Source: Tepidimicrobium xylanilyticum
GTDB lineage: Bacteria > Bacillota > Clostridia > Tissierellales > Tepidimicrobiaceae
Assembly: GCF_900106765.1 (NCBI RefSeq)
Contig: NZ_FNNG01000001.1
Location: 375,774-439,773, forward strand
Direction of reading: 5' to 3'
Length of the DNA stretch: 64,000 bases
Position numbers and translations under genes: made by a program. This document shows, piece after piece, positions 1 through 17,530 of this stretch. The notes below the pieces were generated by a model. The model searched no databases and had not been told where the DNA came from. It saw nothing but the letters and a program-made list of their open reading frames with translations. Numbering within the stretch: the stretch's first letter is position 1; each line of letters opens with the position of its first letter.

Positions 1-548
1 TTACAGAGAATAGAATTAATTTCAGCCATTACATTCTCTATCTGAGTTGGTTGTCTACTTGGTATTTTTATGATGAAATCTACAATTTCTTTTAATTTGC
101 CCCCACTTTCACCAGTTATGGCAACTGTATAGGCTCCTTTAACTTTTGCCTTTTCTATTCCATTTATTACATTTAACGAATTTCCACTGGTGCTTAATCC
201 GATAACTAAGTCGTTTTGCGAAGCATATACCTCTACTTGTTTTTTATAGATGTTTTCAAATCCATAGTCGTTAGATAGGGTAGTTATTATGTCTACATTT
301 GAAGATAAGGACAATACTGGTCTACCTTCTTTGCCAGATTTAAACCTACCTATAAATGATGCTGCCATTATGTTGGCTACTCCAGCGCAACCTCCATTAC
401 CAAATGCTATTATCTTATTCCCATTCTCAAAAGTTTTTTCAAACAAATCTGCTAGTTTTACTATATCTTCAACTAGAACTGATTTACACCTTTCTGACGT
501 ATTCTTAGTTTCATCCAAAAAATTCACTATAAGGCTTTTATCAATCAT
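1..548 (-). CDS. SIS-domain sugar-phosphate isomerase, GmhA-like (partial, cut by left edge)
   Basis: The N-terminal 182 residues of a SIS (sugar isomerase) domain protein; the C-terminus lies outside the window. Starting from ATG at 548, the frame shows GNGGCAG at about residues 50-56, NDYGFE at 93-98 and GLSTSGNS at 117-124, in the order and spacing of phosphoheptose isomerase (GmhA). A purine-rich AAGGGGAAGG lies just upstream of the start. It is the last visible gene of the PTS/Grd operon, 38 bases after the aldehyde dehydrogenase. SIS proteins bind phosphosugars and act as isomerases, deglycases or regulators. In this context a role in isomerising or deglycosylating the PTS-imported sugar phosphate is more likely than heptose biosynthesis, but that is inference. 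Confidence 0.85.
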   Translation of the reverse strand, partial: MIDKSLIVNFLDETKNTSERCKSVLVEDIVKLADLFEKTFENGNKIIAFGNGGCAGVANIMAASFIGRFKSGKEGRPVLSLSSNVDIITTLSNDYGFENIYKKQVEVYASQNDLVIGLSTSGNSLNVINGIEKAKVKGAYTVAITGESGGKLKEIVDFIIKIPSRQPTQIENVMAEINSILC

Positions 549-586
549 AGCCTTCCCCTTTCTTTATTATGGAATTTACTACCTTT

Positions 587-2080
587 TTAAAATGGAGGAT
601 TCACATTATCTCCTAATTCTACAAAGATTGTTTTAGAACGCATATATTTATGAATTCCTGCCACTCCTATTCCACTTTGTTTCCAACCTGCTCCGGGAGA
701 TTCTACCATTCCTTTGCTGAAATAGGTATTAATATAAATTTGTCCACCTTTAATCTTAGCTGCTACCCTATGGGCTCTTGCCACATCCTTTGTAAATACA
801 GCTCCTGCTAATCCATAATCCACTAAATTTGCTAAGTTTATAGCTTCTTCCTCCGTTTTAAATTTACTTACACATACTACAGGTCCAAATATTTCTTCCT
901 GAAAAATTGTCATTTCAGGAGTTATATCAGTAAAAATAGTAGGTAATATGAAATTACCATCCTTCAATTCTTCTGCAACACATCTACCATCTTTAATTAA
1001 AGTTGCCCCTTCTTTAATCCCTTTCTCTATATAGTTGCACACATTATTGTAATGCTCTTTTGAAATTAGGGGACCAAAATTCACACCTTTTTCATAATTA
1101 AATCCATCACCTGGTTTAAATTCATTACTATACCTGCATAAGGCTTCTACAAATTTATCATAAATAGACTCCTGAACTATTATTCTGGTACCGGATACAC
1201 ACACTTGTCCAGAATTTAATGTAAATCCATGTAATGCCCATTTGGCTGCATTTTCTATATCTACATCTTCAAAAATGATATTAGGGCTTTTCCCTCCTAA
1301 TTCTAACGCTAAATCCTTTATAGTAGAACTAGCTGCATTAAATACCTTTCTGCCCGTTTCTGTTCCTCCTGTCATAGATATCATGTCCACATCCTTGTCT
1401 TTGACAAGAACTTCTCCTACCAAAGATCCTGGACCTGTTACAATATTCACTACCCCTTTAGGGAATCCCGCCTCTTCAAACACAGAGGCTAAAGCCAACC
1501 AACTTAAAGATGCCCAAGAAGAAGGTTTTACAATTACAGTATTTCCTGCAGCCAAAATAGCAGCAATTTTCTGGCAACCCATCATCAATGGGCCATTCCA
1601 AGGCAATATTTCAGCTACAACTCCATAGGGTTCCCAATTTACATAATTTAAATAGTTTCCACCACCATCTACAGGGACTACCTTCCCTTCTATGCACCTA
1701 GCCTTCCCTGCGTAGTATTCAAAAGCATCTAAGCTTTGAGGCAATTCATAATATAGTACGCTGGGATAGAGTTTCCCACAATCCAGTGTTTCCAAACAAG
1801 CAAATTCCTCCTGCTTTTTAGCCAATGTATCTTTGAATTTTAAAAGTAGTTTACTCCTTTCCAAATTAGTCATCTTACCCCAGGGTCCCTTATCAAATGC
1901 ATCTTTGGCAGCTTTTATTGCTTTTTTTACATCATTTTCTCCACCTTTATATACTTTTGCAAAAGACTGATTATTTACAGGATTTATTACATCCATAGTT
2001 TCTCCTGATTCTGATTCAAGGAACTCACCATTTATATAAAGCTTATAGGGTTCATCTTTAACATATTTATAAGGATCCAT
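587..2080 (-). CDS. NAD(P)-dependent aldehyde dehydrogenase
   Basis: A 497-residue aldehyde dehydrogenase superfamily enzyme, of usual family length, oxidising an aldehyde to a carboxylate with NAD(P). Visible landmarks are N162 in the PWNGP loop, cofactor Lys185 in IVKPSSW, general base E260 in ELGGKSP and nucleophile C294 in GQVC. The longer open frame to 2182 overlaps the preceding gene; ATG at 2080 follows an AAGGGGG ribosome binding site and leaves a 28-base gap after the GrdE-like gene. It is co-directional with the Grd-like reductase and the alcohol dehydrogenase, so its aldehyde probably comes from the same pathway. The substrate cannot be read from sequence. Confidence 0.93.
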   Translation of the reverse strand: MDPYKYVKDEPYKLYINGEFLESESGETMDVINPVNNQSFAKVYKGGENDVKKAIKAAKDAFDKGPWGKMTNLERSKLLLKFKDTLAKKQEEFACLETLDCGKLYPSVLYYELPQSLDAFEYYAGKARCIEGKVVPVDGGGNYLNYVNWEPYGVVAEILPWNGPLMMGCQKIAAILAAGNTVIVKPSSWASLSWLALASVFEEAGFPKGVVNIVTGPGSLVGEVLVKDKDVDMISMTGGTETGRKVFNAASSTIKDLALELGGKSPNIIFEDVDIENAAKWALHGFTLNSGQVCVSGTRIIVQESIYDKFVEALCRYSNEFKPGDGFNYEKGVNFGPLISKEHYNNVCNYIEKGIKEGATLIKDGRCVAEELKDGNFILPTIFTDITPEMTIFQEEIFGPVVCVSKFKTEEEAINLANLVDYGLAGAVFTKDVARAHRVAAKIKGGQIYINTYFSKGMVESPGAGWKQSGIGVAGIHKYMRSKTIFVELGDNVNPPF

Positions 2081-2108
2081 CAAAGTCACTACCCCCTTAT
2101 AAGTAAAT

Positions 2109-3419
2109 CTAATAGGCTTCAGCAAATAGTTTGCCATGCCCCGATTGATTTCCTGAACAATAGAAATGAGTAGTCGTATCAAAGGTTATACTCTTATTTG
2201 CTGGGGGGAAGTATCCACCTGATTCCTTATTAAGTCTCAATACTTCACCACCAACTACCCTTTCAACCTTCGGCAGTGTGTAAGGCTTTTCTATTGAGCC
2301 ACCACTAATTATGGCATCCGCTTCTGGAACATCATCTACTAAAAGTATTCCTTCCGTTCCATCTACTCCCCCAAATTCAAATGTAATGGTTGAAGCTTTT
2401 ATTCCATTCTTTTCTGCGGCTTGGATTGTTAACATCCCATCTACAGCTGCATTTCCTCCACCTTCCCAAGCCATTATAAGTCCATCCGCTCCTAAATACT
2501 TAGCCAACTTAACACAGAAATTAGCAGAACGTTCCTTATGCCAATTGGTAGGATTATGACTTCTGCTCAATATTACACCTCTAAAGTTCAGTTCCTTATT
2601 GTGAAGTCTATATAGTTCTAACAATATGGGATGATTTACATGCAAATAGGTTGGCACTTTGAATGCTGGCCATACATAATTCCCACTTACAATACAACCA
2701 TCTAACATCTCATTTGGGTGCAATAAGGTTGGCACTAAATTAGATATATCATGACCGTATAAATAGGTATTTGAATAAACTCCTTGATTTTGACATTGCC
2801 ATACCAATACTACATTGGGTAGTTCAGGGTTTATATTGGATATGGAAAATTCTTCTACTTCATTTGGGACTTGTCCTACAGTTAACTCAGCCAAAATTTC
2901 CGAAACCTTTAGTCCACAAAGTCTAATATCATTATCATATTCTGCTGATGATTTTCCTTCTAAAAGCTTATAAGTTATAACTAGATTGATAGTTTGTGAA
3001 AAAGGAGTAAATCCAGCAATTGGACCAATCATATCTATAATTGCGTCCCTTGGATATAATAGACCACTGCTAGCACTGCTTTCATCCCATGGTAGAGGGG
3101 CACTTTCCATTACAGTGAAACCTCTTAATAAATTTGTTATCCCTTCACCTACTACATTTGGATGGCCAAAAAAACCAGAATATTGCTTCCCAATACCTTC
3201 TACTTTGTACATTGGCTGTATTGTGTCTAACACATGGACTATCCTTGCACTTTCCCCAGGTTTAACAAGCTCAAAATCTACATCAGTAACACTTTTCATT
3301 AATGGCCTAATTTTTTCTAATAATTCTTCCTCATTAATAGATAATACTCCATCCTTATATTGAGTTTTATCGGAAAAAATCACATCTTTCACATCAAAAT
3401 ACTGCCTTTTAAGTTTCAC
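2109..3419 (-). CDS. GrdE-like component B subunit of a glycine/sarcosine/betaine-type reductase, pyruvoyl Cys replaced by Tyr
   Basis: A 436-residue homologue of the GrdE/GrdG/GrdI proprotein of glycine, sarcosine and betaine reductases. In those enzymes component B binds the amine substrate, and the proprotein is cleaved at an internal Cys to make a pyruvoyl group. The match spans the whole chain (DGVLSINEEEL near residue 23, PGESARI near 54, DGCIVSGN at 240-247, KERSANFCVKLAKYLGADG in the C-terminal half). At the cleavage position after IVSGN this protein has Tyr248 (codon TAT) where, from memory of the family, Cys is expected. I choose GTG at 3419: GGAGGGG lies 6 bases upstream, overlapping the end of the GrdB-like gene. 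No grdA, grdC or grdD homologue is in the window. Either it lost pyruvoyl chemistry or it uses another electrophile. Confidence 0.85.
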   Translation of the reverse strand: MKLKRQYFDVKDVIFSDKTQYKDGVLSINEEELLEKIRPLMKSVTDVDFELVKPGESARIVHVLDTIQPMYKVEGIGKQYSGFFGHPNVVGEGITNLLRGFTVMESAPLPWDESSASSGLLYPRDAIIDMIGPIAGFTPFSQTINLVITYKLLEGKSSAEYDNDIRLCGLKVSEILAELTVGQVPNEVEEFSISNINPELPNVVLVWQCQNQGVYSNTYLYGHDISNLVPTLLHPNEMLDGCIVSGNYVWPAFKVPTYLHVNHPILLELYRLHNKELNFRGVILSRSHNPTNWHKERSANFCVKLAKYLGADGLIMAWEGGGNAAVDGMLTIQAAEKNGIKASTITFEFGGVDGTEGILLVDDVPEADAIISGGSIEKPYTLPKVERVVGGEVLRLNKESGGYFPPANKSITFDTTTHFYCSGNQSGHGKLFAEAY

Positions 3420-3420
3420 A

Positions 3421-4755
3421 TTACCCCTCCTTACTTTCGTCAACATAAAAAATAGTAGGTTCGGATACCGGAGTACTTACAGCTTCTAATGCCTTCATAA
3501 GAATATTCCGCCTATAGAACCTTTCTCTTTCCAATGGCAATTCAGGATTCCCTACAGGATTAGTAAAGTCTCCGCCAAAGACGATCCTATTAGCACCGAC
3601 ATTATAAGCTATAGATGTGAAAGCTGTAATAACAGCATTTGGAACGCCTTCTTTATCCAATTCCTTTGAAATAGTTGCAACGCAACGAGTACATGTCCCT
3701 CAGGTAGAAGTTAATAATGCCACATTTACTTTATTAGTCTTCAAGTCGCCAGCAATTCCTCTGCCTATTTTTTTACTGCTTTCCACATTGGTTCCGATGC
3801 CACATGTAGTAAAAAATTCGTCGTAAACTTTATTTATTTTTCCTTCTCTTTCTAATATGCGTAACTCATCTAATGGAACTAATCTATTTGGATCCTCATC
3901 CACTATTGTAGTGTCATATCCACCATGAATTGAAATAAAATCCCCTTTAGGAATTAGATCTAATCCAGCAATATTGTATTTACCGTAGGTTACAGAAAAA
4001 GCCTGTTTCAATTTGTCCGGATTACCTTTAGGCACCAATCCGCCTGTCGTAATTAAGGCTACATGAGCTTCTTTTAAATCCTTAATTGGATCTGCAGGAC
4101 TAACCTTTTCAAAACCTCTTAGCGGGATTTCCGTTTTATGTTTCTCCCCTTTTAATTTCTTTAATAATATTTCCACCACCCTTTGTGCACCAGTCTTTTC
4201 ATGATATTCATTATATCTATGGCCTGTAGGTAAATAGCCTTCTATTCTAGCTGGACCAATTTTTTCTCCCTTAGCTAATTTCAATGAAAATTTGCCTAGA
4301 ATCGGAAGCACTTCTTTCATACCAGCCGATGTTTCTGAACTTTCTATAATATAGTTATCCTTTACATACATCTGAACTGCTGGATTCTCATAATACATAG
4401 CTGTAACACTTGGTATATTGTGAGTCTTCTTTACATAATCGCATAATTTAGCACATGCAACACCATATCTACCAGCATTAAATGCAGGACCTGCAATAAA
4501 CACATCTGGATTTATTTTTTCCATAATCCTATCTATTTCTGGCAATATGCTCTCATACTTTTCATCATTATTGATAAAATTATCTCCACAGGAAATTACT
4601 TTTACAACTTCCATCTCGTTTCCCCAAAAACTTCCTATAGCAATAGCTGGCCCCTTTATATCATCCAATACTTTTAGACCCATATCAGCCTTTTCTTCTC
4701 CACCTATACCTGCATAGAATTGATTAACATAATAAACAGCTTTTAGCTTAGCCAT
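3421..4755 (-). CDS. GrdB-like selenoprotein subunit (UGA = selenocysteine)
   Basis: A 444-residue homologue of GrdB, the selenoprotein of component B in glycine/sarcosine/betaine reductase, read through an in-frame TGA at 3702-3700. Before the TGA the chain shows the GrdB landmarks YYVNQFYAGIGGEEKAD near the N-terminus, VFIAGPAFNAGRYGVACA, GGLVPKGNPDKL and the end VALLTST. After it the same frame continues GTCTRC and runs 90 residues through NVGANRIVFGGDFTNPVGNPEL to TAA at 3421. LTST-Sec-GTCTRC is the GrdB active-site context, so the TGA is Sec at residue 352 rather than a stop. ATG at 4755 has GAGGAGG 6 bases upstream. It sits in tandem with the GrdE-like gene. The substrate is unknown; the context points to a sugar-derived amine rather than glycine. 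Confidence 0.93.
3674..3702 (-). promoter_or_regulatory. In-frame UGA with SECIS-like hairpin
   Basis: TGA at 3702-3700 is followed 13 bases later by a small stem-loop, GTTGC-GTT-GCAAC (3686-3674). Its size and distance resemble the apical part of bacterial SECIS elements that recruit SelB. Inside coding sequence, this supports decoding as selenocysteine. The outer stem was not folded. Confidence 0.65.
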
Positions 4756-4803
4756 AATTCGCCTCCTCAACCTAATAGTCTATTTAAATGAATACAAATA
4801 ATC

Positions 4804-4843
4804 CTAAAAATTAGATGGATAGTACTATCCATCTAATTTTTAG
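4804..4843. terminator. 40-bp perfect palindrome between alcohol dehydrogenase and grdB-like gene
   Basis: The bases from 4804 to 4843 form a perfect palindrome with an AT-rich outer stem (CTAAAAATTAGATGG and its complement), so each 3' arm ends in a T run on either strand. It lies in the 100-base gap between the alcohol dehydrogenase stop and the GrdB-like start. It should act as an intrinsic terminator or attenuator that separates expression of the Grd module from the upstream PTS genes. Confidence 0.8.
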
Positions 4844-4856
4844 TTAAAAAAACCAA

Positions 4857-5909
4857 CTATTCATTCATAACTACTATTCTGTAGGTATCTGGCTTAATTG
4901 CTTCTTCGAAAGCTTTCTGGGCTTCTTCTAACGGGAATTTAGCAGATATCAATTTATCAGGTACGACTAATCCTTTAGAAAGCAATATGGATGATGTATG
5001 GAATGCTTCTACAGGTGGACTTACTGCACCTGTAATTACTACTTGAGTATTATGAATCCAGTTGGGGCTTACTGAAATGGGTTCATCTGGATGGATGGAG
5101 CTATACATTATAACTCTACCAGTTTTCCCTAAGCCTTGAACTGCTTCCTCAGCTATCTTTGCTATAGCAGTAGTGTTAAAGATTACATCTGCGCCCCTTC
5201 CTTCAGTAAGACTTTTAATTTTTTCTACAAAATTTTCTTCTAATGGATTAATTGTTATATCTGCACCAGCTTCTTTAGCTTTTTCTCTCCTAACTGGATC
5301 TGGTTCACTGACTATAACCCTTGCCCCTCTCAATTTACTAACCATTACATGTAATAATCCCATTATTCCTGCACCGATTATTACTACATCATTTCCTAAT
5401 TTCACTTGAGCCTGTTCCATACTATTTACTACACAGGCTAATGGTTCAGTAAATGCACCGTATTCAAAGGGTAGGTCGTTAGGAAGTTTAAATATGTCTT
5501 GTGGTTTTACAACAAGATATTGTCCCAACCCCCCCGGTCCACCTATTTCCCTACGTGGACCAGGTTGAGGTTTATGAGCATTAATACATAGATTTTCTTT
5601 TCCCTGTCTACAGTAATAACATCTACCACAGGAATTAAAGGATCGTACTGCAACCCTTTGACCTATTGGGAACTCTTCCTCATCCACCCCTTCCCCAACA
5701 GACTCAATAACCCCTGCCATTTCATGCCCTCCTAAAAATGGTAGAGGCATCTTTGTTATTTTTAGAAAAGTTCTTTGTTCCCATGTACAAAGTGCACATG
5801 CTTTAATCTTTACCAGTATTTCCCCTTCTCTTGGAACTGGCTTTTCTATTTCTAATATCTCTACCTTCCTTTCATCCGTTATAACTGCTGCCTTCATCTT
5901 TTCACTCAT
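4857..5909 (-). CDS. Zinc-dependent medium-chain alcohol/polyol dehydrogenase
   Basis: A 350-residue MDR-family dehydrogenase of the threonine/sorbitol dehydrogenase type, interconverting an alcohol and a ketone or aldehyde with NAD(P). Catalytic zinc ligands are visible as C41 (CALC), H62 and E63 (GGHE). The structural zinc site is C94, C97, C100 and C108 (CGRCYYCRQGKENLC). A Rossmann segment VVIIGAGIMG lies near residue 175. The start MSEKMKA is set by AAAGGAGGAAATAAAA just upstream. It lies between the EamA transporter and the GrdB-like gene, with a strong palindrome after its stop. Oxidation of a sugar alcohol or amino-sugar hydroxyl in the same catabolic route is the simplest reading. 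Confidence 0.92.
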   Translation of the reverse strand: MSEKMKAAVITDERKVEILEIEKPVPREGEILVKIKACALCTWEQRTFLKITKMPLPFLGGHEMAGVIESVGEGVDEEEFPIGQRVAVRSFNSCGRCYYCRQGKENLCINAHKPQPGPRREIGGPGGLGQYLVVKPQDIFKLPNDLPFEYGAFTEPLACVVNSMEQAQVKLGNDVVIIGAGIMGLLHVMVSKLRGARVIVSEPDPVRREKAKEAGADITINPLEENFVEKIKSLTEGRGADVIFNTTAIAKIAEEAVQGLGKTGRVIMYSSIHPDEPISVSPNWIHNTQVVITGAVSPPVEAFHTSSILLSKGLVVPDKLISAKFPLEEAQKAFEEAIKPDTYRIVVMNE

Positions 5910-5959
5910 TTTTATTTCCTCCTTTTAGTTTTATCTATTTAAATTAATTTCTTCTCTCA

Positions 5960-6892
5960 CTAATCGGTAACTGGTTTCTTCAACTGGACTATCATTACTC
6001 CAGCCATAATCAAAATTATTCCTAATCCTACTTCCAGATTTACTTTTTCACCTAATAAAATCATGGCTAAGATTGGTGCTATTGCAGTTTGGGTAGAATT
6101 AATGGTTGTGGCGCTAGCAACTTGGGTTAATGAAGTAGCCGTTGTAATAGAAATAATAGCAAGAGCACCAAATAAGCCTGCAAAGATAAACTTACTAATA
6201 GTAATACATGGAATTATTGAATAGTAATTGTTACCTTGGATCAAAAAAATTATATGAAGTAAAATCTCTCCCGTAGTCACTTCTAAAAAGCTTACAGTCC
6301 ATCTATCTAAGGATTTCTTGGTGAATAAATACCGTTTTATAACTCCAGAGGAGGAATAACATAAAGCGGCTAAAAGCGTCAAAGGAACAGCTTTTTGCCA
6401 TCCTTCTAACATTATATTTCCTCCCAAATTTCCTATTGTTAATAGTATGACACCTAAAAAACTTATAAGCATTCCTAGGATCATGGGGAAATTCATCTTT
6501 TCCTTTAAAAAAATATAGGAAATCAAAGTAGCCCACATAGCCTGGGTTCCCATAATAGGTGTAGTCAATATAACTGCACCTACTTTTAAGGCCTCAAAAA
6601 AGGCCCAATTCCCTAAAACATAAACTATAAATCCTAATAAAGCTAATATGAGAATACTATCCATACCAATAAAATCCTCAGACCTAGGATTTAACTTCTT
6701 CAAATATTCCTTACCAAGAAAGACTATAATTGAAATTAACCACATAGGCATGGTTTTAATTGCTGCCCCAAAAAGAGGGGGAGCATCAGCAAGAGCCCAT
6801 TTTAAAACTACATTTGTTAATGCATAGCTAAAAGCAGCCAATAAGGCCCAAGCTTCTCCCCTGCCTATTGAAGGGTATTTTTTATCTTTCAA
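5960..6892 (-). CDS. EamA/DMT-family membrane transporter
   Basis: A 310-residue, very hydrophobic protein with about ten membrane spans arranged as two EamA repeats, typical of the drug/metabolite transporter superfamily. The N-terminal repeat starts at GEAWALLAAFSYALTNVVLKW and the second around AVPLTLLAALCYSSSGVIKR. The start is TTG at 6892 with AGGAGG 8 bases upstream. It sits inside the PTS/Grd operon between aldolase and alcohol dehydrogenase. Import is already covered by the PTS, so it may export an end product or amine, or import an unphosphorylated relative; this is inference. Confidence 0.88.
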   Translation of the reverse strand: MKDKKYPSIGRGEAWALLAAFSYALTNVVLKWALADAPPLFGAAIKTMPMWLISIIVFLGKEYLKKLNPRSEDFIGMDSILILALLGFIVYVLGNWAFFEALKVGAVILTTPIMGTQAMWATLISYIFLKEKMNFPMILGMLISFLGVILLTIGNLGGNIMLEGWQKAVPLTLLAALCYSSSGVIKRYLFTKKSLDRWTVSFLEVTTGEILLHIIFLIQGNNYYSIIPCITISKFIFAGLFGALAIISITTATSLTQVASATTINSTQTAIAPILAMILLGEKVNLEVGLGIILIMAGVMIVQLKKPVTD

Positions 6893-6969
6893 AGAATTAT
6901 CCTCCTATAACTAAAAAACTATGGATTACACTTTTCTTTGGTTGAACTTCTAATTTTTATTTAAAAGCT

Positions 6970-7752
6970 TTATAATAATTTTAATGCTTCTTCCACATCT
7001 GCATCTTCATGGACTATTGCCACTATAGCTTTAACTAATTTATCTGGTGTTTCATGTCTCCAAATATTCCTACCTATAATTACACCTTTTGCTCCTGCTG
7101 TCATAGCTTCCTTTATCATCTGAAGCAAATCCTTTTCAGACTTAGTTGCTCCTCCGCCAAGTACTAAAACAGGTTTATAACAGCCTTCAACTACCTTTTT
7201 AAAGCTTTCAATATCTCCTGTATAATCTGTCTTAATAAAATCTGCTCCTAATTCTACACCTATCCTGCATGCAGATGCTATATTTTCTGGAGTTCTTGCA
7301 TCATCATCTCCCTCAAATCCCCTTGGAAGCATTTCGGCACCAACTACAAAATTCCATCGGGTTGCTTCACTTACTAATCTAGCTAATCCTTTAAGGGTTA
7401 CATCTTCATTACTTGCACCTGGAAATCCCATACAGAGCACTGCATCAGCACCAACTCTTATGGCATCTTCAATGCTATATATTACTTCCATACTTTTATC
7501 GTAAGTTTTGGCAAGATATGATGTACCTCCATCAATTCTTAGTATTAATCCGATATTCCCTAATTCTTCTTGAAATGTTGTAGCTATTCCATAGGTAGTG
7601 AGTATGGCATCAATACCGCCTTCAACACACTTTTTTAATATTTCGCCTGTATCATTTAATTCTGGTAAAACATTTAAACCATTACCATGGTCCATTGCTA
7701 ATACTACTGACTTTCCATCTTTTCTAAAAATATTATTTAATCTTCTCTTCAT
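6970..7752 (-). CDS. Class I aldolase of the DhnA/LsrF (FbaB) family
   Basis: A 260-residue TIM-barrel class I aldolase of the DhnA/FbaB/LsrF group, which cleaves phosphorylated ketoses through a Schiff base. Landmarks are AMDHG at residues 19-23 at the first strand, the probable Schiff-base lysine K174 in GADFIKTDYTG, and the phosphate-binding end GGGATKSEKD followed by GVIIGRNIW. ATG at 7752 follows a GGGGGG purine run; the longer frame to 7797 has no better site. It follows the EIID gene after a hairpin gap, so the natural substrate should be the sugar phosphate delivered by this PTS or a product of it. Confidence 0.9.
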   Translation of the reverse strand: MKRRLNNIFRKDGKSVVLAMDHGNGLNVLPELNDTGEILKKCVEGGIDAILTTYGIATTFQEELGNIGLILRIDGGTSYLAKTYDKSMEVIYSIEDAIRVGADAVLCMGFPGASNEDVTLKGLARLVSEATRWNFVVGAEMLPRGFEGDDDARTPENIASACRIGVELGADFIKTDYTGDIESFKKVVEGCYKPVLVLGGGATKSEKDLLQMIKEAMTAGAKGVIIGRNIWRHETPDKLVKAIVAIVHEDADVEEALKLL

Positions 7753-7813
7753 ATTAAGACCCCCCATTTTGTCCAAATCAATTTCAAATCTAAGCAATTT
7801 ACATAGATTTCTT

Positions 7814-7843
7814 AGCCAGAGATTAAATGGTTTATCTCTGGCT
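7814..7843 (-). terminator. Hairpin between EIID and aldolase
   Basis: AGCCAGAGAT (7814-7823) pairs with ATCTCTGGCT (7834-7843). No long T run follows on the minus strand, so it could be a weak terminator or an mRNA processing or stability element that sets the ratio of PTS to enzyme transcripts. Confidence 0.5.
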
Positions 7844-7854
7844 TGAAATCTAAA

Positions 7855-8679
7855 CTAGAATATTCCTATTAAACTTCCTACAACTCCGGCTACAATTATA
7901 ATTAGCATTATCCTTGCTGGGCTTACTCCTTTTTGTAGCAACTTATATACACCAAAGGTCAATAGCAAAGGAAGTAGACCAGGGAAAACTTTATCAATTA
8001 TATCTGCCTGTAAGGCTATTTTCGATTCACCAAAAGTCATTGTAATAGGTGTGGATAAACTTACATATTGAGCAGTTAGGGCTCCTATTACTGTACATCC
8101 TAATACTCCAGCTGCCATAATTACCTTATTAAAAGTTCCACTTTGGAGTAAATTTTCAACAGCATTACTACCAAACCTATAACCTTGCATGTAGAGTATA
8201 TAGCTAACACCCATTACTACAGCAGAAACTAAAATGGAGTATAATACAGGTCCTAATACATTACCCTCTCTAGATATACCTATACAAATAGCCAATAATA
8301 TTGGAACTACAGCCCCTTGAATTAAAGTATCTCCGATTCCTGCCAAAGGACCCATTAACCCTGTTTTAATTGCATTTATGGCTTCATCGCTTACAGGTGC
8401 TCCATTAGCCTTTTCCTCTTCCATAGCTGCTGTAATTCCAGGTATGATTGATCCGATAGTTGGTTGGGTATTGAAAAACACCAAATGTCTTTGTAATGCT
8501 GATGCTCTATCTTCTTTCTTGTCGTATAATTTATTAATTATTGGAGCCATAGAGTGTGCAAAACCTGGAGCTTGCATCCTTTCATAACTATAGGTAGATT
8601 GACAAAAAGTAAGCCATAAAAACCACGATTTTACTAATTCCTTTTTAGACAACTTTTTATTATTAACCTTATCGCTCAA
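7855..8679 (-). CDS. PTS mannose/fructose/sorbose-family EIID membrane subunit
   Basis: A 274-residue EIID subunit of a mannose-family (Man) PTS permease, which with EIIC forms the membrane channel. It matches the family from the N-terminal LVKSWFLWLTFCQSTYSYER segment through HLVFFNTQPTIGSIIPG and ends in hydrophobic spans. TTG at 8679 is preferred because GAGGAG sits 8 bases upstream; the more distal TTG at 8688 touches the ribosome binding site. The gene follows EIIC by 28 bases. Man-family systems take up hexoses, amino sugars, Amadori products and sugar acids, so the substrate is open. Confidence 0.95.
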   Translation of the reverse strand: MSDKVNNKKLSKKELVKSWFLWLTFCQSTYSYERMQAPGFAHSMAPIINKLYDKKEDRASALQRHLVFFNTQPTIGSIIPGITAAMEEEKANGAPVSDEAINAIKTGLMGPLAGIGDTLIQGAVVPILLAICIGISREGNVLGPVLYSILVSAVVMGVSYILYMQGYRFGSNAVENLLQSGTFNKVIMAAGVLGCTVIGALTAQYVSLSTPITMTFGESKIALQADIIDKVFPGLLPLLLTFGVYKLLQKGVSPARIMLIIIVAGVVGSLIGIF

Positions 8680-8707
8680 ACCAGCCAACTCCTCTCTTTA
8701 ATCGATA

Positions 8708-9478
8708 TTAAACATTGCTTTCCGATTCCAAAATATCCTTTTTGAAAGTCATATGGATAAATGCCGCTATTGCTCCAAATATTGCTATTCCTATTACATC
8801 TAATTTTAGATAAATGCTTAAAAAGAACCCTAAGAAAAAGTATGCACGATTATCACCTTTAAATATTGCTCTTAAGTTCATTGCAATACCTAGAGCAGGC
8901 ATCATGCCTCCTACTACCATTAATGCACTTAATACGTTTTCTCCAAGGAAAGCTATTGCAGATTCTACTGCTTGTGGACCATATAATACTGCTAAAAATA
9001 CTGGTATAAAACTTATTATAAATAGGAAAACTTGTGCTGGTATCATGTTTAATAATGAAACTCCTCTAGCATCTCCTTCTTCTGCCCGTTTATCAACCCA
9101 GTGAACAAAAAAGGAATTCAATGTCATCCTGCCAAACCATATTAAAGTTCCCAACAAACCCAATGGTACTGCCAATGCTAAAGCTGCTTCTGGTTCTAGC
9201 CCTGAACTTATGGCTAATGCTGTACCTAAAGTTCCCGCCAAAGCTGGATCACCAGGTAATGCTCCTCCAGCAGATATAAATCCTACATACATAAGGTTAA
9301 TAGTCGCACCTATAATAGTTCCTTGAACTGGATCTCCAAGTATAATTCCAACTATAAGTCCTGCAACCAAAGGTCTATATAATGTGTAATATCCAACTCC
9401 AAAAAGCCAACTGGAATTGCCCAGATAATATACCAAAGCTATTAAAAATGCCTTAAAAGCGGTAATTTCCAATTCCAT
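8708..9478 (-). CDS. PTS mannose/fructose/sorbose-family EIIC membrane subunit
   Basis: A 256-residue polytopic EIIC subunit of a Man-family PTS. Family landmarks include PLVAGLIVGIILGDPVQG near residue 35 and the loop ISAGGALPGDPALAGTLGTA near 69-88, which is the typical EIIC conserved stretch. Together with EIID it translocates the sugar while EIIB phosphorylates it. It is the third gene after the sigma-54 promoter. Confidence 0.95.
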   Translation of the reverse strand: MELEITAFKAFLIALVYYLGNSSWLFGVGYYTLYRPLVAGLIVGIILGDPVQGTIIGATINLMYVGFISAGGALPGDPALAGTLGTALAISSGLEPEAALALAVPLGLLGTLIWFGRMTLNSFFVHWVDKRAEEGDARGVSLLNMIPAQVFLFIISFIPVFLAVLYGPQAVESAIAFLGENVLSALMVVGGMMPALGIAMNLRAIFKGDNRAYFFLGFFLSIYLKLDVIGIAIFGAIAAFIHMTFKKDILESESNV

Positions 9479-9537
9479 TTCCTCCCTTCATTTTTCGAGA
9501 AACCTTTTAAATTTTATAAAACCTTTTCTACCATTTG

Positions 9538-10014
9538 TTATAACAGTGTAGATATTTCAATAGGCTTGTCATCAGGTACTATTCTGATATCGATTTCCAC
9601 CCCCTTATCTAATAATCGAGAAAAGATAGCCTTTTCCTCCTCTGATACTGAAATATTTCTGTAGAATTTCTTCCTTCCAGGGCCTGCTCCCATGCCTCCA
9701 ACTATTAATTTTTCAATTTTAACCCCTTTATCCACTAGTTTTTCGATAGTATGAGGATATTTAACTAAAATAATTACCCTTTCACCTTCTTTGGCCTCTG
9801 CTTTTAATGCTTCAGCTCCTTCTCCTACATCATATACTTCAACTTTTATGCCAGGAGGTGCTGCCATTTTTAATACTCTCTGAAGGAATTGGTCCTGTGC
9901 TACTGCGTCGTCTACAATGATTATCCTATTGCCTTCTGTTGATTTTACCCAGGCTGTCATAACCTGACCATGAATTAATCTGTCATCAATCCTAGTTAAA
10001 ACAATGTTTACCAT
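9538..10014 (-). CDS. PTS mannose/fructose/sorbose-family EIIB subunit
   Basis: A 158-residue cytoplasmic EIIB of the Man/sorbose family. The phosphorylated histidine is H15 in RIDDRLIHGQV, and GGMGAGPGRKKFYRNISVS near residue 107 is the second conserved patch. It takes phosphate from EIIA and passes it to the sugar. The gene starts 16 bases after the EIIA stop. Confidence 0.96.
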   Translation of the reverse strand: MVNIVLTRIDDRLIHGQVMTAWVKSTEGNRIIIVDDAVAQDQFLQRVLKMAAPPGIKVEVYDVGEGAEALKAEAKEGERVIILVKYPHTIEKLVDKGVKIEKLIVGGMGAGPGRKKFYRNISVSEEEKAIFSRLLDKGVEIDIRIVPDDKPIEISTLL

Positions 10015-10030
10015 CTTTTCCCCTCCAATT

Positions 10031-10435
10031 TTATATATTATTATTTAATATTGCTCCAATGTTTTTAATACCTTCATATCCGGCTTTAAATGCAGAGTCA
10101 ACCAACTCTCCTATATCTACACATTCTCTCATGCTAAGAACTTCTATAAGCATTGGTAAATTCACTCCCGTAAGACTATGAAAATTTAAATGCTCCATAT
10201 TTGCTGCCGCTGCATTTGAAGGACTTCCTCCAAATAAATCAGTTAAGACTAAGACTCCATCTCCTTCATCCAATTTTTCTATTGAAGTTTTAATTTGATG
10301 GTGTAATTCTTCAATACTATCCCCATGTTCAAGGCCTAACGTTAAAACATTTTTTTGCTGTCCTATTATGAGCTCAGCACTTTTTAATAGTTCATGTCCA
10401 AATTTTCCATGTGTGACAATTAATATTCCAATCAT
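10031..10435 (-). CDS. PTS mannose-family EIIA subunit
   Basis: A 134-residue EIIA of the Man family with phospho-acceptor H9 in ILIVTHG and the conserved VLTDLFGGSPSNAA patch near residues 63-76. It is the first gene after the sigma-54 promoter, with a leader of roughly 100 bases. EIIA also donates phosphate to PRD domains of LevR-type activators, so it links sugar flux to expression of its own operon. Confidence 0.96.
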   Translation of the reverse strand: MIGILIVTHGKFGHELLKSAELIIGQQKNVLTLGLEHGDSIEELHHQIKTSIEKLDEGDGVLVLTDLFGGSPSNAAAANMEHLNFHSLTGVNLPMLIEVLSMRECVDIGELVDSAFKAGYEGIKNIGAILNNNI

Positions 10436-10552
10436 TTTCAGCTCCCTTTCTAAATTTTTTATGCTTCCATTGAAATCTTTCTTATTCTTGTATCTTTTTG
10501 CTTAATGATAGTTGAATACTTATTAGTAATATTTTTGCTGCCACTTATTAGA

Positions 10553-10568
10553 GCAACTATTGTGCCAA
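10553..10568 (-). promoter_or_regulatory. Sigma-54 (-24/-12) promoter of the PTS operon
   Basis: The minus strand reads TTGGCACAATAGTTGC. This has the GG and GC dinucleotides separated by exactly 10 bases and matches TGGCAC-N5-TTGC. It lies about 120 bases upstream of the EIIA start and directly downstream of a LevR-type sigma-54 activator gene. Confidence 0.93.
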
Positions 10569-10630
10569 TTTACGTCTCACTTCGCAGAAAAACTTTGAAA
10601 AGCCTTAAATTATCAAACTTTAATAAAATG

Positions 10631-10668
10631 TAAATAAAAAAGCACATGATCAAAATTATCATGTGCTT
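10631..10668 (-). terminator. Intrinsic terminator after the LevR-like gene
   Basis: On the minus strand, AAGCACATGAT, a 7-base loop and the perfect complement ATCATGTGCTT are followed by TTTTTATTTA. It closes the regulator transcript before the separate sigma-54 promoter of the PTS operon. Confidence 0.93.
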
Positions 10669-10687
10669 CACTATTATTTGATTTGCT

Positions 10688-13510
10688 TTATTGTGCATCA
10701 AAAAAATCCATTATATATCCTATTTCTGTATCAGGAATCTCAATGCCAAATTTCTCCTCAATTTCTTGTAAATTATTTTTTATTACCTTATATAACTGAG
10801 GTTTTGCTTGAATCAACCTCTGAATATTATTATACGTTAAACTTTCACCTGTTAATACCCTCTCTACCATGGTACAGGTGTGAAACAAAAACCCTATTCT
10901 CATACGATCATTGTTTACCAATCCCAGTTCATTAATTATCTTAATAAATACATTTCTAATAATTTCATAAGCTTTGATTGGATTTAGAAATGCCAATGTT
11001 TCTTCTAGTACACCAATAATGCTATATTCTGAAGGCTTATTATAATTGCCTAATTCTTGTCCTGTTATCAATTTCTCAAGTGTCTTTAATCCATCTCCAA
11101 TAATAACTTCATCAATTGGAATATATGGCACATCGGGAATCTTTAAATCTACCGTTCCCACTACTGCAATCAGGTTTTTTGTTTCTATCCCATTCAATTT
11201 AGTATCCTGGTCATAATTTAATGGCACCAAATTAACGTTATAATCTTTGATTATAGGTAGCGCATTATTTATAAACTGAACAAGTTTTATGGCACTTCCC
11301 TGTCCTGTTAAACAGGTGGTAATAATTGTCTTAGGTTCATCAATTAGCACTTTATTTTTTATATCCTTAGTAAGTACTCTACCAATATAAGGACCTACAT
11401 TTTGAATATCTTCACAAAGCTGGTTAAGGGTCATTTCTGGAAGCATAGCCTTTCTTACCGCTTCTAACACCATAGGCGTTGAAACCATTTCCACAGATTT
11501 AGTTTCTATACCAGTCTTTTTTGTTACTATTTCTGCAAAAGCAACTAATGAACCCATATCCACCATAAGAAGTACTCCTTTGCCTTGAACGATAGATTTT
11601 ACCATATTTATTGTTTTATCAAGGACTTCCTCCACTTTACAGTCTAAGGGCATATCTATAGCTTTACAATGTTTGGTTCCTAGTAAACTATTTACTGTAT
11701 CTGCTATACTAGAAGCAGTAGATTTACCATGGGCTAAAACAATTACCCCTATTGCTCCTTCTGACTCCCCTAAGTCTGCATTAACTGAACTTAAGAACAT
11801 GGCTATAATTCCTATTTCTTCCTTAGGAATACTTATACCTAATTCCTCTTCAAGTATCTCCTTAATTAACCTTGCTGCATTTAATTCAACGGGATTATTG
11901 AGCACTATATCATTTAATTGAGGATAATCCAAAGTCTTTCCCTCATAACTCCTTTCCATCAAAGCGCAAATATGCATACAGAGCCCAATAAGGACCTTCT
12001 TGTTATATCTTTTCTTGAATTTTTGCTCTACAAGATTTAAAGCCAATTCCATAGCATAATAGACTTTTGGACTGACTATCTTAAACAACTCTTCATCCTT
12101 TGGAATCCCCCTTACAATATCGAATCTCTTTATAAGTCTTTTAATATACTCTTCTATATATACGTTTAGCATTTGATTAATTTTTTGTTTGGAATAACCT
12201 TGCTTGGAATACTCTATATGTTTTTCTTTGATAATTTTATATAAGTCCTCAGAAATATCATATTCGCCTAACATTGTAAACCCTTCATCAAAGGGCGTAA
12301 ATTCATAATAGTTACTATTATCTCTACCAATAAGATCCATTATCTCCTGATTATTATATCCTCGTTTTAATAGTCCCTTATATATGTAGTCGTGTAATAA
12401 AGATGTGTGTATTTCTATCCTATCCTTATCATAGGTTCTATAATCCAAAAAACCTCTAGCACAGGTCAATTGTATATCGCTTTTTAACTGCCCAATATTC
12501 CCATTACAATCATATAGAAGGAAGGCTTTTATTACGTCTTTGCTGACTCTAATGGGTACTTGTACACATTTTGCCTCATCAAGGAAAAACTGTTTAATAA
12601 GTTGAAGCCTTTCTATTAAAGGCTTTTCAGATAGATCCGGTAATTTTATTACCATTGGAATCCTTCTTAAAAAGGTTTGCAATAGGCTGGAGTTAACATC
12701 TTCAGTAGTAGCTCCTATTAATAACACATTGGCCTTTCTAGTATTTCCCGTCTCTCCAAGACGCCTATAGATATTCTTGTCCATTAACAAGAAAAGCATT
12801 TCCTGACCTTCAGGTGGAAGCCGGTGTATCTCATCTAATAATAGTACTCCTCCATTGCTCTTTTCCACAAGACCTGCTTTATCAGTATCTGCTCCTGTAA
12901 AGGCACCCTTTTTATAACCAAATAATTGGGATAATAATAATTGGGGATTGTTGGCATATTCTGAACAGTTAAAAATTACAAATTCCGCATCTGAGTCTAT
13001 GGTACCAGATTCCACTGCAAAATTATACATCATCTCTGCAAATGTGGTTTTTCCCACTCCAGTAGAGCCTACTAACAAGGTATGAAGTCCCCTAGGTGGA
13101 TATAATATTGCTGCCTTGGCCTGTTTAATTGGAAGATCTAAGCTTCCATTAGCCCCTATTAACTTTTCAAAGGATTTTTCCTCTACTTTAATTGCATTCT
13201 TAGAATCGTTCTTCCTTTCAATAAAATAATTGATTGAATCTACTTCAAATACCTTATCTTCCAGTTTTATGGAAAGAAGTTCCTCCAATCTCTCCCTAGT
13301 AAAAAAGTAGACTGGCCTACCTTTAATCTTAACTATTCTCTTTTCTGCCGTCAGTGCATTAAGCTCTGCACTAGCATTATTTCTACTTATATCGGCCTTT
13401 TGTCCAACTTCCGATGCCTGAAAACCGGAAAAACCACCTTCTAAATCGTCTAAAGTCACCTGGTCGCAAAGAGCTTGTAAACAATTGAAAACCTTTTCTT
13501 TTCTAGTCAA
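10688..13510 (-). CDS. LevR-type sigma-54 activator with PRD, EIIA and EIIB domains
   Basis: A 940-residue transcription activator. Domains in order are an N-terminal winged helix (about 1-80), a sigma-54 interaction AAA+ module with Walker A GSTGVGKT (148-155), GAFTGA loop (202-207) and Walker B GGVLLLDEI, a first PRD with H513, a Man-type EIIA-like domain with H594 in VLAHGKS, an EIIB-like domain with TTCLTGQGS near 740, and a second PRD near the C-terminus (FLFHTCTMVER). It hydrolyses ATP to open sigma-54 promoters, and the PRDs are tuned by PTS phosphorylation. Start is TTG at 13510 with AAGGAGG 7 bases upstream. Its own sigma-A promoter and terminator are visible. It surely drives the adjacent PTS operon. 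Confidence 0.95.
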   Translation of the reverse strand: MTRKEKVFNCLQALCDQVTLDDLEGGFSGFQASEVGQKADISRNNASAELNALTAEKRIVKIKGRPVYFFTRERLEELLSIKLEDKVFEVDSINYFIERKNDSKNAIKVEEKSFEKLIGANGSLDLPIKQAKAAILYPPRGLHTLLVGSTGVGKTTFAEMMYNFAVESGTIDSDAEFVIFNCSEYANNPQLLLSQLFGYKKGAFTGADTDKAGLVEKSNGGVLLLDEIHRLPPEGQEMLFLLMDKNIYRRLGETGNTRKANVLLIGATTEDVNSSLLQTFLRRIPMVIKLPDLSEKPLIERLQLIKQFFLDEAKCVQVPIRVSKDVIKAFLLYDCNGNIGQLKSDIQLTCARGFLDYRTYDKDRIEIHTSLLHDYIYKGLLKRGYNNQEIMDLIGRDNSNYYEFTPFDEGFTMLGEYDISEDLYKIIKEKHIEYSKQGYSKQKINQMLNVYIEEYIKRLIKRFDIVRGIPKDEELFKIVSPKVYYAMELALNLVEQKFKKRYNKKVLIGLCMHICALMERSYEGKTLDYPQLNDIVLNNPVELNAARLIKEILEEELGISIPKEEIGIIAMFLSSVNADLGESEGAIGVIVLAHGKSTASSIADTVNSLLGTKHCKAIDMPLDCKVEEVLDKTINMVKSIVQGKGVLLMVDMGSLVAFAEIVTKKTGIETKSVEMVSTPMVLEAVRKAMLPEMTLNQLCEDIQNVGPYIGRVLTKDIKNKVLIDEPKTIITTCLTGQGSAIKLVQFINNALPIIKDYNVNLVPLNYDQDTKLNGIETKNLIAVVGTVDLKIPDVPYIPIDEVIIGDGLKTLEKLITGQELGNYNKPSEYSIIGVLEETLAFLNPIKAYEIIRNVFIKIINELGLVNNDRMRIGFLFHTCTMVERVLTGESLTYNNIQRLIQAKPQLYKVIKNNLQEIEEKFGIEIPDTEIGYIMDFFDAQ

Positions 13511-14705: not shown

Positions 14706-16247
14706 TTATTTTCTTATTAATCCCTTAAACAATAATCTAACCTCTTTCACCCTCAATATAGAACATAAAATAAAATATATGCTTGCCCCTATGCCTATGG
14801 ACATAATTAGTATAACAAATTCTCCTATTGTAGAACTAATAAGATTAGCCGTTAATCCAAAATAAATAAAATATACTAATATCCCCATAACTATCGATGC
14901 AAATAATACCTTTAAAAAGCATTTCAAATAGTTTCTTAACCCTATAGGACCTATTTTTCTTCTCAAACTTAAAAATAAGAGTAAAGTAGTAAAAGTAGCA
15001 GATATACTAGTAGCCAATGCTAGGCCGCTATGCGCCATAAATCTTATTAATATTAAATTTAATATGATATTTAAACCTACTGCAAACGCCCCATTTAACA
15101 TGGGTGTTTTGGTATCGTGAAAAGCATAAAATACCCTATTTAACATTAACCTTAATGAAGCACCTACCAATCCTAAAGAATAGAATATGAAGGCTTGGGA
15201 GGTCATAATGGTTGCATTAGAATCGAAGGCACCTCTTTGGAAAAATATTCTTACTATAGGTTCTGATAATACTATTATCCCCATGGTAGCAGGTACCGTA
15301 ATAATCAGTATAATATTGATTCCTTGGTTTAATATCTTTTTAACCTGCCTAATATCTTCCTGCGAAAAAGCTTTAGACAGCATTGGAAATACTACTGTTG
15401 TAACCGCAGCTACAAAAACAGAGATTATTAAGTCCTTCAACCTAGAAGCATAGGTAAGAGCTGAAATACTTCCTTCTACTAAGCTAGAGGCTAAAGTCCT
15501 ATCAATCACCGTATTAAACTGTTGTACAGCCGACCCCATCATTACTGGCAATACTAATACTAAGGCCCTTTTTAAATAGGGGTCACTTAAATTGACATCC
15601 AGTTTATATCTATAACCCTGGTACCTAATAGCTGGTATCTGGATTAAAAATTGGGTGGATGCTGCTACAACGCTGGTTAACATTAGCCCCTCAATATTTC
15701 CCTTGTCTGCAAAAAAGATTAGGAAAAACAGAAATACAAAATTATAAGGAAGTCCCATAATTGCAGGAGGACCAAATATTTCGCTACTATGTAGGTATCC
15801 TGAAAAAACATAGGTAAAACCTAAAAAAATTACAATAGGAAGGCCTACCCTATTCAATTTCACCGCTAGCTGAAACTGTTCTCCTTCAAATCCCTTGGCC
15901 AATATTTTAATTATTATGGGAGAAAGAAAAAATCCAAATAAAGCTAATAATATGGTAATAAGTAGTATTACATTTAGTATATTATTCAAATACCTTAGTT
16001 TTCCCCTTCTCCCGCTTCTCTCCCCTATTTCTGTGAAAATGGGTATAAGGGTTGTATTCAATGAAGCACCAATTGTAGTCATTAAAATAGTAGTAGCCGT
16101 CATGGCAACAAAATAGGTATCCGTCTCGTATCCAGAACCATATTTAGATGCAATTAAAACTTCCCTTAAAAACCCTAAAACCTTACTTATTAAAGTAAAA
16201 ATTCCAATCATAGCTGCATGTTTTGCTACCTTCCCAGTATTCGACAT
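14706..16247 (-). CDS. murJ: Lipid II flippase MurJ (MviN family)
   Basis: A 513-residue polytopic MOP-superfamily protein that flips lipid II across the membrane during peptidoglycan synthesis. The N-terminal pattern KHAAMIGIFTLISKVLGFLRE followed by ASKYG and ETDTYFVA is characteristic of MurJ, with about 14 hydrophobic spans of the usual length. ATG at 16247 is preceded by GAAGGAGAATATAT; the upstream frame to 16268 is not needed. It follows the SLH/PrcB surface protein gene by 54 bases after that gene's terminator. Clostridia often carry several MurJ copies, some for other polymers, so lipid II as the substrate is by family. Confidence 0.92.
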   Translation of the reverse strand: MSNTGKVAKHAAMIGIFTLISKVLGFLREVLIASKYGSGYETDTYFVAMTATTILMTTIGASLNTTLIPIFTEIGERSGRRGKLRYLNNILNVILLITILLALFGFFLSPIIIKILAKGFEGEQFQLAVKLNRVGLPIVIFLGFTYVFSGYLHSSEIFGPPAIMGLPYNFVFLFFLIFFADKGNIEGLMLTSVVAASTQFLIQIPAIRYQGYRYKLDVNLSDPYLKRALVLVLPVMMGSAVQQFNTVIDRTLASSLVEGSISALTYASRLKDLIISVFVAAVTTVVFPMLSKAFSQEDIRQVKKILNQGINIILIITVPATMGIIVLSEPIVRIFFQRGAFDSNATIMTSQAFIFYSLGLVGASLRLMLNRVFYAFHDTKTPMLNGAFAVGLNIILNLILIRFMAHSGLALATSISATFTTLLLFLSLRRKIGPIGLRNYLKCFLKVLFASIVMGILVYFIYFGLTANLISSTIGEFVILIMSIGIGASIYFILCSILRVKEVRLLFKGLIRK

Positions 16248-16301
16248 ATATATTCTCCTTCCATGCATTACTCCATAGATATGTATATATTATACTACAA
16301 T

Positions 16302-17186: not shown

Positions 17187-17530
17187 ATTATCCCCCTTTC
17201 TAGATGTAACCAACCTTAAATCTATTATAATATTATAATAATTTCATTTGGTTACATAATAGTTACAATTGTAGGGAAATTTCCACTATTTACAATATAG
17301 AAATATCAATTTACAAAAGTATTACAATTCAATTACATTAAAATGCATGATACAAATTATCATAATTAGGTATAAGTACCTATGTAAATTTAAAGACTAC
17401 TTAACTTAAAATGATTATAATATTGATAATAATACTAAAATTTTCATAAAAATAAAGGATTTTGAAATTTTTTGTCTAATAATTACATATGTGAAAATAT
17501 TCATCATTTTTACAAAGGGGTTGGAATCAT
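17187..17530. other. AT-rich divergent intergenic region
   Basis: About 340 bases between divergent genes, the SLH/PrcB protein and a chemoreceptor. It is extremely AT-rich, with several TATAAT-like hexamers on both strands, so no single promoter can be picked with confidence. I see no gene, riboswitch or repeat. Confidence 0.6.

Follow-up and report, generated by a model that had tools for sequence, protein, structure and literature searches.

Tepidimicrobium xylanilyticum contig NZ_FNNG01000001.1 carries an operon in which a mannose-family phosphotransferase system (Man-PTS) is joined to a selenoprotein reductase of the Grd type. The operon lies in the 64,000-nucleotide stretch analysed here (the window; contig positions 375,774–439,773, with all coordinates below given as positions in the window). 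It is real and complete, and runs entirely on the minus strand in the order LevR, EIIA, EIIB, EIIC, EIID, aldolase, EamA, Zn-dependent dehydrogenase, GrdB, GrdE and aldehyde dehydrogenase (ALDH). Its GrdB/GrdE pair probably adds a new substrate class to the Grd B components; the RibF version of the pathway had been reported in 2026, without a mechanism. That the operon as a whole is a PTS-fed version of this anaerobic side-chain degradation, with the new component B as its last enzyme, is a proposal that we consider evenly balanced.

A separate clade of Grd component B

GrdB (3421–4755, minus strand; PF07355) is a GrdB-like selenoprotein with one in-frame UGA, at 3702–3700, in the motif TST-U-GTCTRC, which is shared with the genome's glycine- and betaine-type GrdB. 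A hairpin resembling SECIS_4, a selenocysteine insertion sequence, follows directly (3662–3699, minus strand; 29.3 bits, E = 7e-5); it scores under the Rfam gathering score of 38 bits, whereas the SECIS elements of all eight relatives searched exceed it. With a UxxCxxC selenoprotein and a SECIS, albeit one below gathering, adjoining a GrdE-like subunit (2109–3419, minus strand; PF09338), the pair has the make-up of a Grd component B. GrdB is above the cut-off of TIGR01918, and the substrate-specific NCBIfam cut-offs are all missed: GrdF at 478 against 800 bits, glycine GrdB at 435 against 602 and GrdH at 415 against 775 for GrdB, and GrdG at 273 against 780 and FarE at 145.6 against 675 for GrdE. 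The B components of glycine and betaine type found elsewhere in this genome stay under those cut-offs too, their GrdB having been scored without the part after the selenocysteine.

A first-pass annotation of this DNA had stated that GrdA and GrdC/GrdD are missing. This holds for the operon but not for the genome, which has two GrdA genes (contigs C8 and C4) and GrdC/GrdD (C8), organized as a glycine-type set with GrdA, GrdC and GrdD on C8 and a betaine-type B component with GrdA on C4. The operon's B component therefore has partners available. Contig C12 holds a partial GrdB/GrdE-like pair, perhaps a D-proline reductase. Separately, the betaine-type stretch on C4 (L043) also has a match to an iron-dependent alcohol dehydrogenase (Fe-ADH), as if a chain from alcohol through aldehyde to acid fed the betaine-type set.

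GrdE matches were found in 119 of 150 relatives; outside the window's genome just two are close (81% and 77%), and the other matches listed reach at most 41%. The clade occurs in 6 further genomes of 398 in a sample of the phylum, and a scan of named genomes yielded 20 clade loci, the two close relatives included, with hosts such as Alkaliphilus peptidifermentans, Lutispora saccharofermentans, Faecalicatena contorta and Treponema putidum. In a GrdE tree (inputs de-duplicated by sequence, 14 more distant rows as outgroup), 25 rows including the window sit on one long stem (1.68), with a two-member sister group (L081/L123) at 46–48% identity. Clade members are 64–82% identical to the window's GrdE and all others at most 48%; the genome's betaine-type copy on C4 (L008) stands at 37%. 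Loci with RibF, loci with a PTS and minimal loci interleave inside the clade, as if the B component had kept one substrate, and the window's GrdE, 82% identical to that of the RibF-type locus L055, is placed among RibF-type members. GrdA is present in 18 of 21 clade-carrying genomes (two of them, G501 and G554, apparently being one genome).

Loss of the pyruvoyl cysteine

In C. difficile GrdE, Cys242 becomes a pyruvoyl group (PMC9908766). The corresponding residue is tyrosine in all 17 clade members aligned and in both sister-group members, and cysteine in eight of nine other GrdE proteins; in the window, Tyr257 and Ala261 replace the pyruvoyl-site cysteines, leaving GrdE without the residue expected of a glycine or sarcosine reductase. 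Betaine GrdI and fluoroacetate FarE also do without it, and the Schiff-base route is tied to glycine and sarcosine (PMC10838667). Since a protein lacking this cysteine should act on a substrate that needs no Schiff base, primary and secondary amines are, judged from these alignments, improbable substrates for the clade.

This bears on the first-pass annotation, in which GrdB and GrdE would reductively deaminate a phosphorylated amino sugar or an Amadori compound, with glucosaminate a further candidate, and the resulting aldehyde would pass to ALDH. EIIA and EIIC, two of the four PTS subunits, do score best with N-acetylgalactosamine models, below their cut-offs, and a SIS protein is present. 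Set against this are the tyrosine in 17 of 17 clade members, the Pfam and NCBIfam annotations of the operon genes, which include neither deaminase nor deacetylase, nor a SIS deglycase with two domains, and the recurrent partner gene, which is a riboflavin-kinase homolog; we regard deamination as highly improbable. The enzyme order probably needs revision as well. Grd B components attack compounds of the form X-CH2-COO−, as established for glycine, sarcosine and betaine, so ALDH most likely acts earlier and makes the Grd substrate instead of consuming its product. The annotation was right about the link between PTS and Grd and probably wrong about substrate class and order.

Sequence searches with GrdE and GrdB turned up no relative of solved structure. 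An AlphaFold model of GrdE has a mean predicted local distance difference test score of 80.5, with several loops of low confidence, including the clade-specific segments 120–132 and 256–262. Five clade-specific tryptophans in GrdE, considered as the mark of a flat aromatic substrate, were set aside, as the genome's betaine-type GrdE has six tryptophans.

Conserved gene company

Neighbourhoods were counted with a fixed query set at 25 clade loci (window included, no row dropped) and at 18 control Grd loci, comprising 16 from other genomes of the window's order, taken from the best-scoring list, and the window genome's own two. ALDH is present at 18 clade loci and the tungsten enzyme AOR at three others, so that 21 of 25 have one or the other; the four lacking both (L067, with an ALDH fragment, and L065, L070 and L073, on contigs of 3.6–6.2 kb) are all on short contigs or close to where a contig ends. 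The aldolase and the Zn-dependent dehydrogenase each occur at 13 loci, the dehydrogenase at every locus that has the aldolase. APC permeases (18 loci), XRE-cupin regulators (12), RibF (10, or 11 counting L075, where the gene is truncated at the edge of the locus), SorC regulators (9) and Fe-ADH (7) are also frequent; GrdC/GrdD (3), EIIA (3), LevR (2) and EIIB, EIIC and EIID (2) are not. By contrast, the controls have GrdC/GrdD at 16 loci, thioredoxin reductase (TrxB) at 15 and Fe-ADH at one, and ALDH, AOR, aldolase, Zn-dependent dehydrogenase, RibF, APC permease and PTS at none. Clade GrdE adjoins GrdC, GrdD and thioredoxin reductase in L058, L065 and L079. The first of these (2–13061) is a single gene run of ALDH, a regulator, GrdB, GrdE, TrxB, GrdC, GrdD, SelA- and SelB-like genes and the selenocysteine tRNA (tRNA-Sec), a near-whole selenium reductase package.

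Unrelated genes stand in for one another at several positions: AOR for ALDH (L059, L069 and L079), a class II aldolase for the DhnA type (sister locus L081) and the PTS for RibF (window and L079). That phosphorylation, aldol cleavage and aldehyde oxidation can each be assigned to such replacements speaks for the step order proposed below. The set can also be divided: in one genome (G660), RibF, APC permease, SorC, aldolase and Zn-dependent dehydrogenase are at one locus and ALDH, GrdB and GrdE at another, and in two more (G548 and G662), SorC, aldolase and Zn-dependent dehydrogenase are located apart from the Grd genes. In the aldolase tree, the one built with the more careful method, the window's aldolase and two PTS-type orthologs group with RibF-type aldolases of Faecalicatena contorta, L071 and T. 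putidum (95/90); a tree of the Zn-dependent dehydrogenases does not resolve this grouping.

Minimal loci with an APC permease and XRE-cupin regulator, some of them in genomes with no aldolase match (L074 in G559, L061 in G551 and L064 in G554), raise the alternative that ALDH, GrdB and GrdE are self-standing and draw on preformed aldehydes or alcohols, formylmethyl- and hydroxyethylflavin among them, or on a quaternary amine, while the PTS genes serve an ordinary sugar. Betaine GrdI, also devoid of the pyruvoyl cysteine (PMC10838667), would suit the quaternary amine. However, in the window the GrdB–GrdE–ALDH block lies inside the PTS operon, between the Zn-dependent dehydrogenase and the SIS gene, and L079 repeats the combination of PTS, Zn-dependent dehydrogenase, aldolase, GrdB and GrdE, as does L081/L123, where the aldolase is of class II. 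A self-standing block therefore seems unlikely.

RibF and the lumichrome parallel

The presence of RibF beside the aldolase suggested riboflavin as the substrate. According to a 2026 bioRxiv preprint (PMC12934955), C. scindens makes lumichrome from riboflavin without oxygen, and riboflavin induces its fin neighbourhood, which consists of a RibF homolog (finB), a class I aldolase, an alcohol dehydrogenase, an ALDH and Grd homologs. F. fissicatena, in which Grd homologs are absent and an aldehyde-alcohol dehydrogenase lies alongside, makes hydroxyethylflavin (PMC12934955), as a branching of the route at formylmethylflavin would predict. The part of the preprint at hand offers no reaction scheme, and the terms 'carboxymethylflavin', 'DHAP', 'acetyl', 'retro', 'selen' and 'phosphotransferase' have no occurrences in it. 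Among the literature matches listed, 'glycine reductase' and 'lumichrome' were joined in this preprint and one riboswitch review, and nothing further appeared among those listed for lumichrome, C. scindens, riboflavin catabolism and selenocysteine. Our comparison of the window with fin uses loci of the same gene content, such as L072 of Faecalicatena contorta, in place of the C. scindens sequence. In the family of Faecalicatena contorta, a close fin-type aldolase occurs in 2 of 397 genomes, one being that of L072 itself; the other (L180) has no Grd, RibF or Zn-dependent dehydrogenase match on its 9.5-kb contig.

The operon copies of RibF are altered. Their kinase motif is intact in all 11 full copies, but the adenylyltransferase motif (SS[T/S]xI[R/K]) has lost its third residue, a Ser/Thr, in 12 of 12, and the flavin loop is gone from 7 of 12, whereas all 17 non-operon RibF proteins keep that Ser/Thr. 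This pattern fits a kinase that stops at flavin mononucleotide (FMN). The preprint's own suggestion is that FinB acts as an FADH2 pyrophosphorylase, its authors' discussion favouring flavin overflow or repair (PMC12934955), with lumichrome as damage. The motif changes, present in every operon RibF aligned (the C. scindens copy not among them), do not appear to favour a pyrophosphorylase, and overflow or repair would leave the joint travel of aldolase, ALDH or AOR, GrdB and GrdE unexplained; we give this explanation very little weight. As an observation apart, the only RibF match of the complete T. putidum genome is the operon copy (L068, 14621–15535), with its changed adenylyltransferase motif.

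Proposed pathway

We propose that a compound X-CH2-(CHOH)3-CH2OH, most likely riboflavin (X being flavin N10), would be imported and receive a phosphate at its terminal hydroxyl, a task of the Man-PTS here and of RibF in the relatives. The Zn-dependent dehydrogenase would then oxidize the carbon beside the phosphate-bearing one, giving 4'-keto-FMN, and the DhnA aldolase would split C2'–C3' by a retro-aldol reaction into dihydroxyacetone phosphate (DHAP) and X-CH2-CHO (10-formylmethylflavin). ALDH, or AOR in some relatives, would oxidize this aldehyde to X-CH2-COO− (10-carboxymethylflavin, an N-substituted glycine), from which GrdB and GrdE could move the carboxymethyl group to the selenium of GrdA and free X-H (lumichrome), with no Schiff-base activation; GrdC/GrdD, encoded elsewhere, would finally yield acetyl phosphate. 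Every reaction in this scheme is read from gene content and sequence. We consider the step logic likely and flavin quite likely as the substrate of the RibF-type loci. The full version for the window, in which a mannose-family PTS imports riboflavin and phosphorylates it to FMN in one step and Grd cleaves N10–CH2 to leave DHAP, acetyl phosphate and lumichrome, is more tentative, its chances falling somewhat short of even.

Two further candidates were considered. Glycolate, from a plain pentitol with X = OH, was rejected as a Grd substrate on account of its presumably poor leaving group. For methylthioribose and sulfo-sugar analogues, no gene pointing to them was noticed, although no dedicated search was made.

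If correct, the scheme would provide a route for anaerobic vitamin B2 breakdown, could account for the different products of strains with and without Grd genes, and predicts selenium-dependent lumichrome formation, adding a substrate class to those of Grd B components. The activation of mucosal-associated invariant T cells may be dampened by lumichrome and related catabolites, which are MR1 ligands (PMC12650265).

PTS linkage and the substrate in the window

The first-pass annotation had proposed a PTS-linked pathway joining the aldolase, dehydrogenases and Grd-type reductase, and had named a lack of such linkage in other genomes as part of what would refute it. It does recur in other genomes (L079 and L069 in the clade, and the one sister-group locus L081/L123), though rarely. 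This rarity is the first of several points that weigh against flavin as the PTS substrate in the window, and against the scheme more broadly: among the 25 clade loci, EIIA occurs in three (window, L079 and L069) and EIIB, EIIC and EIID in two (window and L079). Conversely, of 11 loci found to combine PTS EII subunits, a DhnA aldolase and a Zn-dependent dehydrogenase, two have Grd genes (window and L079) and nine have none nearby (L120, L121, L144, L149, L170, L171, L172, L173 and L174, the last starting near a contig end), so the PTS module can occur apart from the Grd branch; nor was any flavin gene seen in those nine. We know of no PTS that takes riboflavin, and none was found among the literature matches listed (best 8 of 15). 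No RibF lies beside the window's operon, the genome's single RibF match being on contig C6 with its motif intact, and no FMN riboswitch reaches the Rfam gathering score in the window or in eight relatives, where SECIS_4, tRNA, tRNA-Sec and one T-box are the only Rfam matches. The scheme leaves the operon's GmhA-like SIS protein and class II aldolase without a function. The operon RibF is the sole RibF match in T. putidum and the L071 genome, so a loss of flavin adenine dinucleotide synthesis cannot be general. No aldolase match was found in 5 of 17 clade genomes searched (G551, G554, G559, G659 and G661), and those in three more (G226, G296 and G556) are weak, at 28–34%; either another source feeds part of the clade, or these assemblies have gaps. 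Three of the 21 clade genomes searched (G547, G551 and G559) gave no GrdA, a fold search with GrdE yielded nothing useful and, in our judgement, specificity is able to shift between close Grd relatives.

These points give room to a related alternative, in which the reaction logic is the same, the PTS imports a different polyol compound and GrdB/GrdE cleave an X-CH2-COO− with another good leaving group, such as a quaternary or aromatic nitrogen or a deazaflavin. The nine Grd-less modules without visible flavin genes and the SIS and class II aldolase genes agree with it, as do related aldolase and Zn-dependent dehydrogenase pairs beside FGGY-type kinases and nucleoside-type ATP-binding cassette (ABC) transporters (both by eye), a creatininase or an Ftr homolog (Ftr being the formylmethanofuran:tetrahydromethanopterin formyltransferase family). 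Against it stand the position of the window's GrdE among RibF-type members, at 82% identity to L055, and the grouping of its aldolase with RibF-type aldolases. We rate this alternative as a minor but serious possibility. Because the PTS modules are mostly Grd-less and no flavin gene was seen in those, flavin stands at about an even chance of being the substrate in the window.

Under the proposed scheme, modules with and without Grd agree with a single aldehyde intermediate that ends either as an alcohol or as acetyl phosphate; Fe-ADH is present in three of the nine Grd-less modules (L120, L121 and L171), and the genomes of L144 and L149 carry clade Grd genes elsewhere (L075 and L073, respectively). 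Creatininase-family proteins in two Grd-less modules (L144, 7997–8785, by Pfam; L172, 7510–8232, by eye) might act on the PTS substrate by opening a ring or an amide. In the window's phylum, relatives of the window's aldolase at L145 (4058–10769) and L175 (5090–10860) adjoin an amidohydrolase, a kinase of the FGGY type and an Ftr-like protein (confirmed by Pfam in L145, by eye in L175), and these clusters perhaps break down another ribityl cofactor, for example methanopterin. In L176 and L179, the neighbours of aldolase and Zn-dependent dehydrogenase pairs look, by eye, like ABC transporters of the BMP/nucleoside type, FGGY kinases and reductases with a flavodoxin fold, so such pairs may handle phosphorylated polyol moieties in general.

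Operon organization

The first-pass annotation had described a Man-PTS under a LevR activator and a sigma-54 promoter in one operon with a DhnA aldolase, Zn-dependent dehydrogenase, ALDH, GrdB and GrdE, and all of these genes are there. All features are on the minus strand. The LevR-type PTS/sigma-54 activator (10688–13510) has AAA+, PRD and EIIA-man domains (Pfam Sigma54_activat, PRD and EIIA-man), and upstream of EIIA lies an exact −24/−12 promoter, TGGCAC-N5-TTGCT (10552–10567). Scanning the window with the sigma-54 consensus gave four matches with at most one mismatch, against 1.05 expected, that at 10567–10552 being the sole exact one. EIIA (10031–10435; PF03610), EIIB of the Man/sorbose family (9538–10014; PF03830), EIIC (8708–9478; AgaW and TIGR00822 models, both under their curated cut-offs) and EIID (7855–8688; PF03613) complete a LevR-controlled Man-PTS. 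They are followed by the DhnA/DeoC-type class I aldolase (6970–7797; PF01791), an EamA/DMT transporter (5960–6892; PF00892), the Zn-dependent dehydrogenase (4857–5909; PF08240 and PF00107) and, past GrdB and GrdE, ALDH (587–2080; PF00171). The EamA gene, absent from the earlier description, has a 44% identical relative in the PTS locus L121 and perhaps serves product export or import.

The SIS gene attributed to the operon does exist (Pfam SIS_2), but at 1–548, outside the 587–13510 span with which it had been listed. It runs off the left end of the window (its counterpart in L046 has 186 residues) and is GmhA-like, scoring 141 bits against the 209-bit cut-off of the sedoheptulose-7-phosphate isomerase model TIGR00441. 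Beyond it, outside the window, a class II aldolase and then an Fe-ADH follow on the same strand. Shine–Dalgarno-like sequences precede the starts of GrdB (4755), GrdE (GTG, 3419), ALDH (2080) and SIS (548). Homologous MurJ-like and SLH-like genes (assigned by eye), 54% and 39% identical between the two genomes, lie next to the PTS operon both in the window (14706–17213, upstream) and in L121 (14847–17397, downstream).

Comparison with known systems

The LevR-regulated Man-PTS operons for fructoselysine (gfr) and glucosaminate (dga) share with the window the activator, the sigma-54 promoter and the PTS. However, neither their SIS deglycase pair nor their dehydratase was seen in the window, which has an aldolase, a Zn-dependent dehydrogenase and Grd genes instead. 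Betaine reductase component B (GrdH/GrdI) resembles the window in having a GrdE-type subunit, GrdI, without the pyruvoyl cysteine (PMC10838667), and differs in forming a separate clade, the window's GrdB missing the GrdH cut-off (415 against 775 bits). Fluoroacetate reductase (FarB/FarE) is likewise a Grd component B acting on another X-CH2-COO− without the pyruvoyl cysteine; FarB, however, has no CxxC (PMC10838667), whereas the window's GrdB keeps UxxCxxC and its GrdE scores below the FarE cut-off. The fin neighbourhood of C. scindens, like the window, combines a class I aldolase, an alcohol dehydrogenase, an ALDH and two homologs of glycine/betaine/sarcosine reductase; where fin has a neighbouring RibF homolog, the window has LevR, the Man-PTS and EamA.

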